A stretch of 64,000 nt of DNA from Pseudomonas syringae KCTC 12500 (lineage in GTDB: Bacteria > Pseudomonadota > Gammaproteobacteria > Pseudomonadales > Pseudomonadaceae), in NCBI RefSeq assembly GCF_000507185.2, contig NZ_AYTM02000002.1, forward strand, positions 829,501-893,500. Reading direction: 5' to 3'. The notes beneath the pieces are model-generated. The model was not told the origin of the DNA, made no database searches, and worked only from the letters and a program-made list of their open reading frames with translations. Of the stretch, positions 22,408 through 30,198 are shown piece after piece. How positions within the stretch are numbered: position 1 is the first letter of the stretch; the number at the start of each line of letters is the position of its first letter. Both the position numbers and the translations under genes were made by a program.

Positions 22408-22732
22408 GTCGCCTCCTGTGTGGGGTTGTCGAGGGTGATCAAGGGTTTACTGACCCATCTACTCCATATGCATGGACACCTTCCCAGCAATCAAAATCAA
22501 CCGATAACACAGATATCTGACCACACCCTAAAACCTCAAGCACCTCACCCACCCAAGAAAAACGACATTTCCTACGTCCCAAACCCACGTCCACACCCTT
22601 GCCACCCCATCCCTGCCACGCTAACCTCCCCGCCGTTCGCTGCCAAATCAGCGGCCGGATTTAGCGATCCGTTCTATCCAGGCGTGTCAGCGCCCCACAC
22701 ACTGCATCAAGCTAAACTTGAAGTACGTGCTA
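22408..22732. other. Intergenic stretch upstream of the C4-like RNA
   Basis: These 325 bases contain a purine-poor segment (about 22500-22640, rich in CA/CC) and no coding signals. The promoter of the C4-like RNA and antirepressor transcript should lie in its right-hand part, but I cannot name a clear -35/-10 pair. Confidence 0.5.
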
Positions 22733-22808
22733 TGGCGGCTGTGCGTCGGAGACCTTCGGGTCTGCCGGTTTCCTGGATACCGGTTCGCTAACCTTCGCAC
22801 AGCTGCCA
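22733..22808 (+). ncRNA. C4-type antisense RNA upstream of an antirepressor gene
   Basis: The sequence folds as a three-stem cloverleaf. The outer stem is GCTGTGCG/CGCACAGC (22738-22745, 22796-22803), extended by TGGC/GCCA. Hairpin 1 is AGACC-TTCG-GGTCT (22750-22763). Hairpin 2 is CCGGT/ACCGG (22765-22769, 22779-22783). Two single-stranded parts are exact complements of the downstream leader. TCCTGGATA (22771-22779) pairs with TATCCAGGA (22843-22851), which includes the ribosome-binding site of the BRO-N gene. TCGCTAA (22785-22791) pairs with TTAGCGA (22818-22824). This is the known design of phage P1/P7/P4 C4 RNAs, which repress antirepressor synthesis and are cut from the same transcript. 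Confidence 0.82.
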
Positions 22809-22860
22809 CCCATTCGTTTAGCGACGTCTTGTGGCAGTCTCATATCCAGGAGCTGCACCC

Positions 22861-23406
22861 ATGTTCACTGCAACCCCCTGCGTGACCCACACCCCCCATT
22901 TCGAAGCCATCCTCTTCCTCCGCCACCGCCGCACCCTTCGCGCCATTTTTACCGAATCTCAAGCCTGGTTCTGCCTCGCCGACCTTGCCCGTCTGATGGG
23001 CAGGGCGCTGGATGAGCGTGCCACGCTCAAGCTCGATGCGGATCAGCGTCGCGAGGTCTGGCTGGAAGCTCATGGCGAGTGCCAGCGGCAATTGATGATC
23101 AGCGAGTCCGGCGTGCTAGCGCTGCTGGTTCATCATTACGTGCCGGAGAACCGCGCGCTGCGTCAGTGGCTGACGCATGAGGTGCTGACGACCTTGCATG
23201 ATCAACAGAACGTCACGCTGGATAACCCCAGAATGAGCCAGCTGCAATGGCCGGGCACATCGCTGAGCGTGCTGCACTGGCGCAGCGAAACCTGGGTTCG
23301 CTTGCGCGACATGCCGAATGTGGTGGCCGAGGCAGCGCCCCGGCCAAAGCGGCCGTTATGGCGCAGGGTGTTGAAGCGCATCAACACAATGCGCACTGCC
23401 GCCTGA
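22861..23406 (+). CDS. BRO-N domain protein (phage-type antirepressor)
   Basis: This 181-residue protein has a BRO family N-terminal domain: RTLRAIFTESQAWFCLADLARLMGRAL, then QRQLMISESGVLALLVHHYVPENRALRQWLTHEVLTTL, the usual core of phage antirepressors (about residues 20-120). A shorter C-terminal part contains WRSETWVRLRDMPNVV, and no KilA-C or ANT domain is added. The ATG at 22861 follows AGGAG (22848-22852). That same ribosome-binding site is complementary to the loop of the C4-like RNA upstream, so translation is probably repressed by it. No other phage genes are nearby; the pair is a solitary phage-derived cassette. Confidence 0.88.
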   Translation: MFTATPCVTHTPHFEAILFLRHRRTLRAIFTESQAWFCLADLARLMGRALDERATLKLDADQRREVWLEAHGECQRQLMISESGVLALLVHHYVPENRALRQWLTHEVLTTLHDQQNVTLDNPRMSQLQWPGTSLSVLHWRSETWVRLRDMPNVVAEAAPRPKRPLWRRVLKRINTMRTAA

Positions 23407-25365: not shown

Positions 25366-28300
25366 ATGATATTCAACACAAAAGACTTCGGAGCACTGGG
25401 CGACGGCGTCACTGACGATACGGCAGCCATTCAGGCCGCGATCGACGCAGCCGCTGCGGCAGGCGGCGGTGAAGTGGTGATGGGGGCCGGGACCTACGTC
25501 GTGTCCGGTGGCGAGGAGCCTTCGGATGGCTGCCTGATGCTCAAGAGCAACGTCACCCTGTCGGGCGCAGGCATGGGCGAGACGATCATCAAGCTCGCGG
25601 ATGGCTCCGACACCAAGGTGACCGGCATCGTGCGCTCGGCCTATGGCGAAGAAACCCACGACTTCGGCATGAAGAACCTGACGCTGGACGGTAATCGGGA
25701 CGCCACCACCGGCAAGGTGGACGGCTGGTTCAACGGTTACATTCCAGGCTCTGATGGCAAGGATTCGAATGTCACCCTCGACAGCGTCGAGATCAAGGAT
25801 TGCTCGGGCTACGGCTTCGACCCGCACGAGCAGACCGTCAACATGGTGATCAAGAACAGCGTGTCGCATGGCAACGGCCTGGACGGCTTCGTGGCCGATT
25901 ACCTGAGCGACAGCGTGTTTGAAAACAACGTCGCCTATGACAACGATCGCCACGGCTTCAACGTGGTCACCAGCACCCACGACTTCACCCTGAGCAACAA
26001 CGTTGCCTATGGCAATGGCAGCACCGGCATCGTGGTGCAGCGCGGCAGCGAGAACATCCCCTCGCCCGCCAACATCACCATCACCGGCGGCGCGGTATAT
26101 GGCAACGCGGCAGAAGGCGTACTGATCAAGCTGTCCAGCCAGGTCTCGGTGAGCGGCGTGGACATCCACGACAATGGCAACGCCGGCGTGCGCATTTATG
26201 GCAGTTCCGGGGTGGATATCTTCGATAACACCCTGAGCAACAACTCCCTGGGCTCGCCGGTTCCGGAAATCATCATTCAGTCCTACGACGACACCACAGG
26301 CGTGTCCGGCAAGTTCTTCAGCGGCAGCGACAACCTGATCCGTGGCAACACGATCACCGGCAGTGACAACTCCACCTACGGCGTCGCCGAGCGCAACGAA
26401 GACGGCACCGACCGCAACAGCATCGTCGGCAACACCATCAGCCACACCAGCAAGGGGCTGACCCTGGTGTATGGCGATGGCAGCTTTGCAGGTGATGCGT
26501 TCCCGCTGGTGACCGTCAATGGCACCGAGGGCAACGACGTCATTACTGGTGGCGCAGCCCACGAGCAGATCTTCGGTCTGGCGGGCAAGGACACCCTGAA
26601 CGGCGGTTCGGGTGACGACATCCTGGTCGGCGGTGCCGGGGCCGACAAGCTCACCGGCGGCGCGGGGGCCGACACCTTTCGCTTCGATCAGTTGACCGAC
26701 AGCTACCGCACGGCGACCACCAGTTCCACCGACCTGGTCACCGACTTCGACATCAGCCAGGACCGCATCGACCTGACCAACCTGGGCTTCACCGGGCTGG
26801 GCAGCGGCAAGGGCGGTACGCTGAACATCAGCTACAACGCCACACTGGACCGCACCTACATCAAATCACTCGACGCCGATGCCAGCGGCAACCGCTTCGA
26901 GCTGGGCTTGAGCGGCAACCTGAAAGACACGCTCAATGCCAGCCACTTCATCTTTCAGCATGTCGTGGAAGGCACGGCGGGCGGCGATACCCTCACCGGC
27001 ACCGACGGCAATGACGTGCTCAACGGCAATGCCGGCACGGACCGTATCGATGGCGGCGCGGGCGCCGACACGATCACTGGCGGAGCCGATGCCGACACCC
27101 TGACCGGTGGCGCAGGCGCGGACCTGTTCATCTACAACTCGCGCCTGGACAGCTATCGCAATTACACCGCCAGCGGCACCAAGCAGAGCGACACGATTAC
27201 CGACTTCAACCCGGCCGAAGACCGCATCGACCTGTCCAGCATCGGCCTGCGCGGCCTGGGCGACGGCAGCGCCAACACCATCTACCTGTCCGTCAATGCC
27301 GACGGCAGCAAGACCTACATCAAGACCGATGCGGTCGACAGCACAGGCAATCGCTTCGAGATCGCCTTGCAAGGCAATCTGGCCGACAAACTGAGTGCGT
27401 CCAACTTCCTCTTCTCCACCGCAGCCGCCGCCAATCAGGCGCCAGTGCTCAATACGCCGCTGATGGACCAGAACATCACCGAGCTGAAGGCGTTCTCCTA
27501 CGCCGTGCAGCCCGGCAGCTTCAGCGACCCGGACAGCAACACGCTGACCTACAGCGCCACCCTGGCCGATAACAGCGCCCTGCCCGACTGGTTGAAGTTC
27601 GACAGCAAGACCCTGACCTTCAGCGGCACACCGGGCGGCACGGCATCGGGGCTTTACTCGGTATTGCTGACCGCGAGCGACGCGACCGGTGCTTCGGTGG
27701 CCGACAGTTTTGCCATCAATGTGGGCAACGTGACACCGGGGATCCTCACCGGCACCGAGAACGCCGAGGCACTGTACGGCACCGAAGGCAACGACACGAT
27801 TCTGGGCCTGGGCGGTGATGACACGCTGCGTGGCGATAGCGGCGCCGACATCATCAACGGTGGCGCAGGACGCGATGCCCTGTACGGTGGCGCCGATGGC
27901 GACACGTTCGTCTACAGCGCACTGACCGACAGCTACCGCGATTATGACGCTGGCGGACTGACCGCCACCGACACGATCTATGACTTCACCCCCGGCCAGG
28001 ACAAGATAGACGTCTCCGCCTTGGGCTTTCTGGGGCTGGGCAACGGCGAGGATCACACGCTGTACATGACCCTCAACGAGACGGGCGACAAGACCTACAT
28101 CAAGTCCGCCACGGCGGATGCCGACGGCAATCGCTTCGAAATCGCGCTGAGCGGCAACCTGATCGACACCCTGACCGACGCGGACTTCGTCTTTGGCCAG
28201 CGCGAGGCGCAGGAGATTCTCTACCTGCCGACGCTGGGCCAGTCCAATGCGCGCCTGCTGCGCATGACTGAAGACGATAACCAGTCCGGCACCTCGGAAA

Positions 28301-30198
28301 TGGTCAAGGACCTGACCCGCTACACCGATTACGACGTGCGCAGCCAGTTCACCGACGCCAATGGTGATGGCATCGACCTCGCCGTGGGCGGCAGCACCGT
28401 GGTCGGCTACTCGACCGGCACTCAGGATGAACAGCGTGTTTCCTGGTGGCTCGTCGACACCGATGAGCCGGGCCCTGCGCTGTTGCGCGCCACCGAGTTG
28501 CTCAAGTCGCAACTGGCGTCGCTGACCGCCATCGACAAAGTGACCACCGGGATCATCTGGGGTCAGGGCGAAGAAGCCGCTCAGGAAATCGCCCGCGCCA
28601 CTGACAAGCAGGCAGCAGCCGAGCTGTACAAGGCCTCGACCCTGAAAGTGTTCGACTACTTGCACGCGCAGATCGGCGATTTCACCGTGTACATCGCCGA
28701 AACCGGGCACTACCAGGCCGACGCCGCCAAGGCGCGCGGTTACACCGAAGAAAAGATCAACGCCATTGTCGAAGGCACCGGGTACGTCAGAAGCGTTCAG
28801 GAAGCTATTGCCACCGAGCGCGCCGACGTCAAGCTGGCGGTTGACTACACCGACCTGCCCCTGCGTTACGAGGTCAACCCGCTGGTTTACCCCGATGACG
28901 TCTGGCACTTGCATGAAGAGTCCGCCGAGATCGTCGGCCAGCGTCTGGCCGATTTCATCGCCGATGACCTGGGCTTTCATGGCAACGCCGCTGACAACAA
29001 CGACCCGGCGGCCATTTTCGAGAGTGGCCAAAACGAAGGCGGCCACATCTTCGGCACCAGTGACGACGACACGCTGGTCGGCAGTTCCGGCAATGACACG
29101 CTGGACGGCGATCAGGGCGCAGACGACATGAGCGGCGGCGATGGCAACGATATCTACGTAGTCGACAACGCCTTCGATACCGTCACCGAAAGCAACGACT
29201 CGCCCTCGCAGGTGGACACCGTGGTGTCGTCTGTCAGCTGGACGCTGGGCGCCAACCTGGAAAACCTGGTGCTTACCGGCGTGTCTGCCATCAATGGCAC
29301 CGGCAACGCCGTGAAGAACGTCATCATCGGCAATGCCAGCAACAACATTCTCGACGGCGCTGCAGGTGCCGACATGCTGACCGGCGGCGATGGGTCGGAC
29401 AGTTATTATGTCGACGATGCCGCCGACCGGGTGGTCGAGACCAATGCCGATGCAAAAGTGGGCGGCGTGGATACGGTGTACAGCTCGCTGGCCAGCTACA
29501 CGCTGGGGGCCAATCTGGAAAACATCGTCATCAACAGCACCGGGGCCGCCAATGCCACCGGCAATGCTCTGGATAACCTGATTTATGCGGGCGCTGGCGA
29601 CAACGTCATGGACGGGCGTGACGGCAATGACACCGTGTCGTATCTGTTCACCACTGCCGGCGTCACCGTTGCGCTGAACACCAGCGCTCAGCAAGCCACC
29701 GGCGGTTCGGGCCTGGACACACTGAAGGGCACTGAAAACCTGATCGGCAGCCAGTTTGCCGACACCTTGACCGGCAACAAGAACGCCAACACCCTGAGTG
29801 GAGGCGCTGGCAATGACACCTTGTCCGGGGGCGCGGGCGACGACGTGCTGATCGGCGGATCAGGCGCTGACACGCTGATCGGCGGCACCGGCGCAGACCA
29901 CTACGTGTTCAACGGCATCAGCGATACGGGCCTGGGCGGACTGCGCGACATCATCAATGGCTTCAAGACAGTCGAAGGCGACAAGCTGGACTTCTCCGGC
30001 TTCGATGCCCGCCCGCTGACCGATAGCCATGATGCCTTCGTGTTCATCGGCAACGCCGCGTTCAGCGCCCACAACAGCGGTGAACTGCGTTTTGCCGATG
30101 GCGTGCTGTACGGCAACATCGATGACAACGTCGGCGCGGACTTCGAAATCCAGCTCACGGGCGTGCAGACGCTGCAGGCCGCCGACATCATTGTCTGA
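25366..30198 (+). CDS. psmE: PsmE-type mannuronan C5-epimerase/alginate O-acetylhydrolase
   Basis: This 1610-residue secreted, calcium-dependent enzyme converts mannuronate to guluronate in polymeric alginate and removes O-acetyl groups. The A module (residues 1 to about 385) is a beta-helix with YGFDPHEQT at 149-157. Tyr149, Asp152, His154, Lys117 and Asp178 sit at AlgE4 catalytic positions. R modules with RTX nonapeptides (GGAGADxLxGGAGAD) follow at about 390-690, then a cadherin/He_PIG-like domain (about 690-785) and a third R module to about 945. A SGNH acetylhydrolase domain has GQSN (Ser960) and DVWH (Asp1178-His1181). More RTX repeats run to the end. There is no signal peptide; type I secretion is expected, but no transporter is adjacent. 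CTGGAG precedes the ATG. Confidence 0.96.
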   Translation: MIFNTKDFGALGDGVTDDTAAIQAAIDAAAAAGGGEVVMGAGTYVVSGGEEPSDGCLMLKSNVTLSGAGMGETIIKLADGSDTKVTGIVRSAYGEETHDFGMKNLTLDGNRDATTGKVDGWFNGYIPGSDGKDSNVTLDSVEIKDCSGYGFDPHEQTVNMVIKNSVSHGNGLDGFVADYLSDSVFENNVAYDNDRHGFNVVTSTHDFTLSNNVAYGNGSTGIVVQRGSENIPSPANITITGGAVYGNAAEGVLIKLSSQVSVSGVDIHDNGNAGVRIYGSSGVDIFDNTLSNNSLGSPVPEIIIQSYDDTTGVSGKFFSGSDNLIRGNTITGSDNSTYGVAERNEDGTDRNSIVGNTISHTSKGLTLVYGDGSFAGDAFPLVTVNGTEGNDVITGGAAHEQIFGLAGKDTLNGGSGDDILVGGAGADKLTGGAGADTFRFDQLTDSYRTATTSSTDLVTDFDISQDRIDLTNLGFTGLGSGKGGTLNISYNATLDRTYIKSLDADASGNRFELGLSGNLKDTLNASHFIFQHVVEGTAGGDTLTGTDGNDVLNGNAGTDRIDGGAGADTITGGADADTLTGGAGADLFIYNSRLDSYRNYTASGTKQSDTITDFNPAEDRIDLSSIGLRGLGDGSANTIYLSVNADGSKTYIKTDAVDSTGNRFEIALQGNLADKLSASNFLFSTAAAANQAPVLNTPLMDQNITELKAFSYAVQPGSFSDPDSNTLTYSATLADNSALPDWLKFDSKTLTFSGTPGGTASGLYSVLLTASDATGASVADSFAINVGNVTPGILTGTENAEALYGTEGNDTILGLGGDDTLRGDSGADIINGGAGRDALYGGADGDTFVYSALTDSYRDYDAGGLTATDTIYDFTPGQDKIDVSALGFLGLGNGEDHTLYMTLNETGDKTYIKSATADADGNRFEIALSGNLIDTLTDADFVFGQREAQEILYLPTLGQSNARLLRMTEDDNQSGTSEMVKDLTRYTDYDVRSQFTDANGDGIDLAVGGSTVVGYSTGTQDEQRVSWWLVDTDEPGPALLRATELLKSQLASLTAIDKVTTGIIWGQGEEAAQEIARATDKQAAAELYKASTLKVFDYLHAQIGDFTVYIAETGHYQADAAKARGYTEEKINAIVEGTGYVRSVQEAIATERADVKLAVDYTDLPLRYEVNPLVYPDDVWHLHEESAEIVGQRLADFIADDLGFHGNAADNNDPAAIFESGQNEGGHIFGTSDDDTLVGSSGNDTLDGDQGADDMSGGDGNDIYVVDNAFDTVTESNDSPSQVDTVVSSVSWTLGANLENLVLTGVSAINGTGNAVKNVIIGNASNNILDGAAGADMLTGGDGSDSYYVDDAADRVVETNADAKVGGVDTVYSSLASYTLGANLENIVINSTGAANATGNALDNLIYAGAGDNVMDGRDGNDTVSYLFTTAGVTVALNTSAQQATGGSGLDTLKGTENLIGSQFADTLTGNKNANTLSGGAGNDTLSGGAGDDVLIGGSGADTLIGGTGADHYVFNGISDTGLGGLRDIINGFKTVEGDKLDFSGFDARPLTDSHDAFVFIGNAAFSAHNSGELRFADGVLYGNIDDNVGADFEIQLTGVQTLQAADIIV

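Follow-up and report, generated by a model that had tools for sequence, protein, structure and literature searches.

A probable self-silencing C4 antisense RNA cassette, with matched targets on both sides of the RNA, at a BRO-N gene of Pseudomonas syringae KCTC 12500

The window is a 64,000-nucleotide stretch of Pseudomonas syringae KCTC 12500 DNA that carries a gene for a protein with a BRO-N domain preceded by a C4 antisense RNA. Read 5' to 3', the locus consists of an element resembling c4-a1b1, the C4 RNA, a second set of targets over the ribosome-binding site and the BRO-N gene, which is the arrangement found for CI of P4. The features are listed in Table 1, where loci other than the window carry L numbers. 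Elsewhere in the window are a match to the PhrS small RNA and a long open reading frame with repeats that, judged by eye, resemble calcium-binding nonapeptide repeats and perhaps belong to a C5-epimerase-like protein.

Table 1. Positions of the RNA elements, matched sites and genes discussed in the text (window positions unless a locus is named)
Feature	Position	Strand	Remarks
Probable -35, TTGCCA	22599-22604	+	17-nt spacer; of the window's pairs ahead of a1b1, the one fitting the consensus best
Probable -10, TAACCT	22622-22627	+	transcript start expected near 22634
c4-a1b1-like element (RF03163)	22621-22675	+	44.3 bits (E 5.8e-10), below the gathering score of 46.7
Upstream junction (b) target, TTAGCGA	22661-22667	+	exact complement, 7 nt, of 22785-22791
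Upstream loop (a) target, TATCCAGG	22675-22682	+	exact complement, 8 nt, of C4 loop
C4 antisense RNA	22728-22813	+	RF01695 match, 79.2 bits
C4 hairpin loop, antisense segment a'	22771-22779	+	
C4 junction, antisense segment b'	22785-22791	+	
Downstream junction (b) target, TTAGCGA	22818-22824	+	exact complement, 7 nt, of 22785-22791
C4 5' arm copy, GTGGCAG	22831-22837	+	able to pair with C4 3' arm 22803-22809
Downstream loop (a) target, TATCCAGGA	22843-22851	+	exact complement, 9 nt, of 22771-22779
BRO-N gene, 181 aa	22861-23406	+	PF02498, 37.4 bits, cut-off 25.6
Long open reading frame	25366-30198	+	nonapeptide-like repeats
PhrS small RNA	53868-53721	-	53.8 bits, cut-off 37
Degenerate sRNA-Xcc1-like sites at the third BRO-N gene of the genome	L009 1224-1384 (C2 ~764,117-764,277)		
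sRNA-Xcc1 (RF02221) before BRO-N	L065 1282-1365; L066 2121-2203 (-); L165 3787-3869; L167 3788-3870; L522-L551		

An earlier note on this DNA had proposed that a C4-type antisense RNA lies here, and the covariance check bears this out: on the whole window the Rfam C4 model RF01695 scores far above its gathering score of 45 (E 7e-14), while R1, a model of our own built from a set that includes the window sequence, gives 89.1 bits. Taken by itself, the 76-nt C4 has a folding energy of -43.1 kcal/mol (z -5.2), with none of 200 shuffles equally stable, and it adopts a three-stem fold that leaves the loop and the junction free; a competing fold is predicted for the long precursor. The exact complementarity of these two segments to the BRO-N leader, also claimed earlier, is of a kind seldom produced by chance, for when the 52-nt leader was dinucleotide-shuffled 20,000 times, the 9-nt match appeared in 22 of the shuffles, the 7-nt match in 125 and both together in one. 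The downstream loop target overlies the ribosome-binding site and includes AGGA of AGGAG. This two-site picture is correct for both downstream sites and had overlooked a second pair of targets upstream of the C4, for which there were no joint occurrences of the 8-nt and 7-nt matches in 20,000 shuffles. The upstream pair lies within or at the edge of the a1b1 match, which scores just below the Rfam cut-off and is composed of a hairpin and a small hairpin displaying the junction target in its loop. A third pairing, between the 3' arm of the C4 and a copy of its 5' arm, is common in these sequences and specific only in part, at least seven pairs (G-U allowed) being found at 65% of 171 loci, compared with 7% of shuffled and 36% of swapped sequences.

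The designation of the BRO-N gene as the target of the C4 agrees with the PF02498 match together with the exact complements in the leader. Among the PHROG antirepressor families the protein has a best E of 2.8e-8, and its distant relatives include phage BRO-N proteins; it is a putative antirepressor, a label given by domain similarity only. In its sequence comparisons the gene is under purifying selection, with dN/dS of 0.04-0.17 against nine relatives, and stop codons are present in some homologues. The predicted fold (pLDDT 74.5), based on an alignment of 23 sequences from which six top-listed ones were omitted (two because of stop codons, four as surplus), had no PDB match at E 0.001.

A probable promoter precedes the a1b1-like element, and the candidate pair TTGCCA-17-TAACCT is omitted by a strict promoter scan. 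Of 133 related loci, 75 have their best -10 beginning 34-39 nt ahead of the upstream junction target. An intrinsic terminator stands between a1b1 and C4 at 56 of 132 loci, compared with 3.1% in shuffles; none was detected in this interval at the window locus or at the other six C4 loci of the same genome, and attenuation at these seven would therefore need another signal. In the predicted ensemble of the full window leader, the C4 stem has a probability of 0.09 and the upstream junction pairing, in which a1b1 pairs in cis with C4, one of 0.86, the corresponding means over 170 loci being 0.46 and 0.43. Given this cis pairing and the ability of the C4 3' arm to pair with the 5'-arm copy, the uncut precursor may be a two-state switch.

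Pairing between a C4 and its own leader is a general property of the loci that were compared. Among 171 distinct loci pooled from the genus, two genomes and the BRO-N loci (8 duplicates of 179 removed), the exact junction word is present downstream at 153, upstream at 160 and on both sides at 151, and these words fall into 24 sequence types, with foreign types fitting both targets in 3 of 4617 trials. The 94 distinct genus loci, which remained after 3 duplicate C4-leader pairs of 97 were dropped and which include L011-L040 drawn from the best-scoring among the matches listed, have a junction match of at least 7 nt downstream in 92 cases and upstream in 92, and a loop match of at least 7 nt downstream in 68 and upstream in 56. 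The rates in swapped leaders (n=2322) are 17.7% and 17.1% for the junction and 6.8% and 6.9% for the loop, downstream and upstream respectively; those for the junction are not lower because many loci share a junction word. At 42 C4 places before BRO-N genes, a match of at least 7 nt is found for the loop downstream at 23 and upstream at 27 and for the junction downstream at 30 and upstream at 37, eight of 50 BRO-N matches having been left out, here and in the pooled set of 171 (one window duplicate, one cut at a contig end and six weak). By these comparisons the loop match is looser than the junction match. Specificity extends to copies within a genome: with ties allowed, each of the 20 sampled leaders of genome G019 has its best fit to its own C4, 19 of them uniquely, and in genome G010 17 of 20 do so, 15 uniquely, the samples in the two genomes being the best 20 listed of 42 and of 36 C4.

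Close relatives of the window locus retain the pairing by changing its partners together. The sequence TTAGCGA at both targets accompanies GCTAA in the C4 of the window and P. graminis, while TTGACGA at both targets accompanies GTCAA in P. congelans and P. avellanae, so that the same two letters differ between the two groups in the C4, the upstream target and the downstream target. In the next closest, P. alliivorans and P. viridiflava, the downstream loop target departs from complementarity at a single position. A different type of change is seen in Pseudomonas sp. KUIN-1, in which 22640-22879 is 42-82% identical per 40 nt, and the next 40 nt 85%, and this divergent stretch is flanked on both sides by at least 90% identity; its C4 and both targets match one another with another set of sequences, and residues 9-181 of its protein are 99% identical to those of the window protein. 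The earlier note had named loss of the complementarity in relatives that keep the BRO-N gene as evidence against its reading. The closest relatives are matched, and at five distinct BRO-N loci the downstream junction match is gone and the upstream one retained, so that the complementarity has been lost in part there. A C4 is present at 29 of the 38 named loci with a relative of the BRO-N gene. Four relatives (L136, L137, L138 and L146) have the downstream flank in common with the window, and in the others the match is limited to the cassette within the flanks that were fetched. The cassette is dispensable, as P. cerasi (L163) lacks 22575-23156, which comprises the C4 and the first half of BRO-N, with the flanks remaining.

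The idea that the immunity switch stands alone in the chromosome did not hold, as the KCTC 12500 genome has seven C4 loci, two ahead of BRO-N genes and five ahead of genes of the Pfam family DUF6124; these five are all the DUF6124 genes in the genome. All seven loci have a junction match of at least 7 nt both downstream and upstream, six have a downstream loop match of at least 7 nt (L003, with 5 nt, is the exception), and the upstream loop matches are 8, 8, 7, 4, 7, 7 and 6 nt. A C4 was found in 184 of 199 Pseudomonas genomes sampled and DUF6124 in 158 of the same 199, this survey registering no more than 20 C4 and 29 DUF6124 hits for any one genome. In the sample of the order outside the genus, C4 was found in 14 of 114 genomes, with at most six copies each, and DUF6124 in none of the 114. 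Twelve hand-picked and mostly C4-rich genomes had 7 (KCTC 12500), 36, 42, 29, 33, 32, 43, 27, 1, 4, 10 and 10 copies, as counted among at most 150 scored candidates per genome. A C4 precedes 40 of 44 DUF6124 genes, namely all five in KCTC 12500 together with 21 of the 22 listed for G010 and 14 of the 17 listed for G159, the latter two sets being the best-scoring among the matches listed. One DUF6124 protein had no match in 50,697 phage records, and the DUF6124 model, a two-helix hairpin (pLDDT 84.9), had no viral fold match at E 0.001. An unnamed family of about 90 residues (MNRYMPLTG...IPLRDGCD) also follows C4 at L018, L023, L025, L090, L105, L135 and other loci, and one member tested had no Pfam or PHROG match. 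Some leaders contain a short open reading frame directly before the main gene, after C4 at L123 and L087 and at the sRNA-Xcc1 loci L522-L526, as if translation were coupled in the manner of icd/ant and orf45/anrP.

BRO-N genes also occur behind a second RNA of similar design. Among 13 scanned BRO-N loci without C4, four have sRNA-Xcc1 in its place and nine have neither RNA above the cut-off. RF02221 was found in 42 of 199 Pseudomonas genomes at 46 places, 30 of which were fetched, and a BRO-N-like start follows it in 27 of the 30 by a crude motif. At 27 distinct loci, matches of at least 7 nt are present for the loop downstream in 67%, the junction downstream in 89%, the loop upstream in 85% and the junction upstream in 93%, compared with 3-7% in shuffled controls and, for the loop, 18% and 29% in swapped ones; the junction matches are nearly invariant, and the evidence for co-change comes from the loop only. 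It is likely from these matches that sRNA-Xcc1 is a C4-like antisense RNA with the same four-site design. In Aggregatibacter phage S1249, sRNA-Xcc1 precedes a possible antirepressor gene and has upstream matches only. The third BRO-N gene of KCTC 12500 has degenerate sites resembling those of sRNA-Xcc1 both upstream and downstream, and its leader had no Rfam match.

The surroundings of the window locus have no sign of a phage, as had been stated earlier for its neighbourhood. A megablast of 10500-35400 (24.9 kb) against 50,697 phage records gave no match, six neighbouring proteins searched with Pfam and three with PHROGs included no integrase or structural gene, and no tRNA was found in the window. 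In a distant search, phage similarity was confined to the C4 stretch and covered at most 16% of the query in the ten matches listed of 26. A phage immunity switch is housed by a phage, satellite or prophage whose antirepressor or replication genes it governs, which is not what was found at this locus. The C4 stretch itself has distant similarity to 26 phage records, and each of the four that were opened scores with model R1. P4 gives 74.9 bits for C4, 60.8 for isrK and 44.1, just under the cut-off, for a1b1, and in the P4-like element phiAH14b the C4 is followed by a 52-aa family that also follows many chromosomal C4. A further open reading frame of at least 50 aa lies directly behind at 30 of 30 loci of the 52-aa class, as assigned by a text rule, compared with 21 of 46 DUF6124-like loci. 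In another genus of the order (L252), C4 stands ahead of a BRO-N gene scoring 73.9 bits. The chromosomal DUF6124 and short BRO-N cassettes look like former control units of phages or satellites that have become independent, a direction of descent that we infer from these resemblances.

The window locus is probably a self-silencing cassette in which the C4 holds its own BRO-N gene off. Since a promoter-like pair lies upstream of a1b1, a1b1, C4, the second targets and BRO-N would all be transcribed together from a single promoter. C4 would be cut from this transcript, as RNase P does in P1/P7, and would stop translation by pairing, through its loop and junction, with the BRO-N mRNA at its ribosome site. 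Newly started transcripts would be bound by C4 as well, through the a1b1 at their 5' end, and transcription would thereby end before C4 is reached; in many relatives a1b1 precedes an intrinsic terminator. Such a module would silence further copies of the same specificity, and copies of another specificity would be independent of it. Promoter use, processing, repression, the timing of the gene's release and the role of the BRO-N protein are parts of this picture that we infer.

It is possible, if rather unlikely, that the cassettes are selfish and toxin-like, encoding harmful proteins for which C4 serves as an RNA antitoxin, and that they spread and persist like a type I toxin-antitoxin pair. 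That reading concerns only their role, as the C4 mechanism is common to it and to self-silencing. The proteins are small and under the control of an antisense RNA made by the cassette itself, and the C4 copies are dispersed, some in tandem. The kil gene of P4 occupies the place right after C4, and the 52-aa family is the first gene after C4 in phiAH14b. Furthermore, the available part of a study of Xanthomonas integrons (PMC12444791) places sRNA-Xcc1, which has the same design, ahead of the toxin gene symE, for which its authors suggested a divergent regulatory mechanism. The PADLOC models, however, hit none of the five proteins tried, DUF6124 is without known function, and unlike in classical type I pairs the RNA and the gene are on the same strand and probably on one transcript.

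A role in defence, in which a chromosomal C4 would shut down the antirepressor or early genes that invading phages or satellites of matching specificity bring in, is improbable. Pseudomonas phages and satellites do carry the same C4 design, and many specificities coexist within one genome. The loop-junction core of the window is nevertheless absent from all IMG/VR contigs, and among the matches listed C4 was found in 0 of 80 viral contigs with the target pair, a two-site pattern too permissive for viral contigs (at least 80 matches in each of two scans), and the suggestion that the locus is a decoy against incoming phage gained no positive support. Selection on the BRO-N gene itself would be unnecessary for a decoy, and the presence of C4 before 40 of 44 DUF6124 genes, the five of this genome and the best listed of two others, fits control of the adjoining gene.

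That the locus is the remnant of a prophage switch still controlling a prophage elsewhere in the genome, as had also been suggested, is very improbable. C4 and BRO-N antirepressors are phage parts, and phage BRO-N proteins are distantly related to that of the window; against this, a genome-wide search found the exact target pair at two places, both adjoining the window C4, and control of a distant prophage through exact targets was rejected on that result. Moreover, the nine large open reading frames lying 1.5 kb or less from the genome's six other C4 appear chromosomal (DnaJ domain, RlmJ, PLD, GNAT, NMT1-like, NA37, methyltransferase, DUF6861 and one without a family) and include no integrase. 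Least probable of all is a non-functional relic retained by chance, for which the truncated P. cerasi copy and the stop codons in some homologues would speak, since in the clade of the window the dN/dS values are low and the sites change together.

Beyond the window, we lean towards the view that Pseudomonas chromosomes contain a large class of mutually independent, self-silencing C4 cassettes, each with its own targets on both sides and guarding small proteins (DUF6124, DUF3077, short BRO-N proteins and unnamed families). Specificity would be rewritten by concerted change or by a swap of the RNA-leader block while the protein stays, and sRNA-Xcc1 would be a second RNA family of the same four-site design, with BRO-N genes under either. 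If this is true, such copies reach 43 in one genome (among at most 150 scored candidates), and dozens of C4-gene pairs per chromosome would form a natural collection of RNA repressors and their targets with mutual specificity. The link to C4 would be the first regulatory handle on DUF6124, and BRO-N leaders would offer a testable local target for sRNA-Xcc1, as judged from the available parts of the sRNA-Xcc1 literature.

C4 is a classical phage immunity RNA. The available text on C4 of P1/P7 with icd/ant (PMC5320573) describes the same fold, with loop and junction pairing with the leader across the ribosome site of a gene of antirepressor type; the locus described here differs in being chromosomal without a phage, in having many copies in the genus and in that the targets are often DUF6124 or other small proteins. 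CI of P4 with seqA and seqC likewise has targets on both sides of the antisense RNA (PMC4825925), but P4 uses transcription termination, whereas no intrinsic terminator was detected between a1b1 and C4 in the window. In Gifsy-1 (IsrK, STnc1160 and orf45-anrP), a short leader RNA ends at a terminator, with read-through into the antirepressor operon, and matches of the Rfam isrK model overlap with several leaders in Pseudomonas, the one in the window being weak (23.2 bits, cut-off 50). For IsrK itself, activation of translation has been reported (PMC4825925), whereas repression is expected for the window C4. sRNA-Xcc1 precedes some other Pseudomonas BRO-N genes with the same four-site design and is a different RNA family, for which targets are predicted genome-wide or left open in the accessible portions of PMC2996969, PMC12444791 and PMC12189769. 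The last of these places copies of C4, isrK and sRNA-Xcc1 side by side in Xylella, with genome-wide predicted targets and, in its accessible portion, the designs unlinked, and the accessible text of PMC2864571 lists c4 and c4-a1b1 as motifs of Proteobacteria and phages. A search of the literature, with subscription papers and supplements (including that of PMC2864571) outside its range, found no work in which C4 is connected with DUF6124, or the design of C4 with sRNA-Xcc1. The nearest precedent is the group 1 C4-like sRNAs of Acinetobacter baumannii, 21 of which lie in the chromosome of one strain with reads that appear processed; their targets were not identified in the available text of that study (PMC5320573), whereas nearly all C4 sampled in Pseudomonas have a matched leader, which supplies named targets for the question that the study left open. 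Thus, as far as the accessible literature extends, multi-copy chromosomal C4-like RNAs were already known, and what is new is the self-matched C4 cassette with DUF6124 among its targets.
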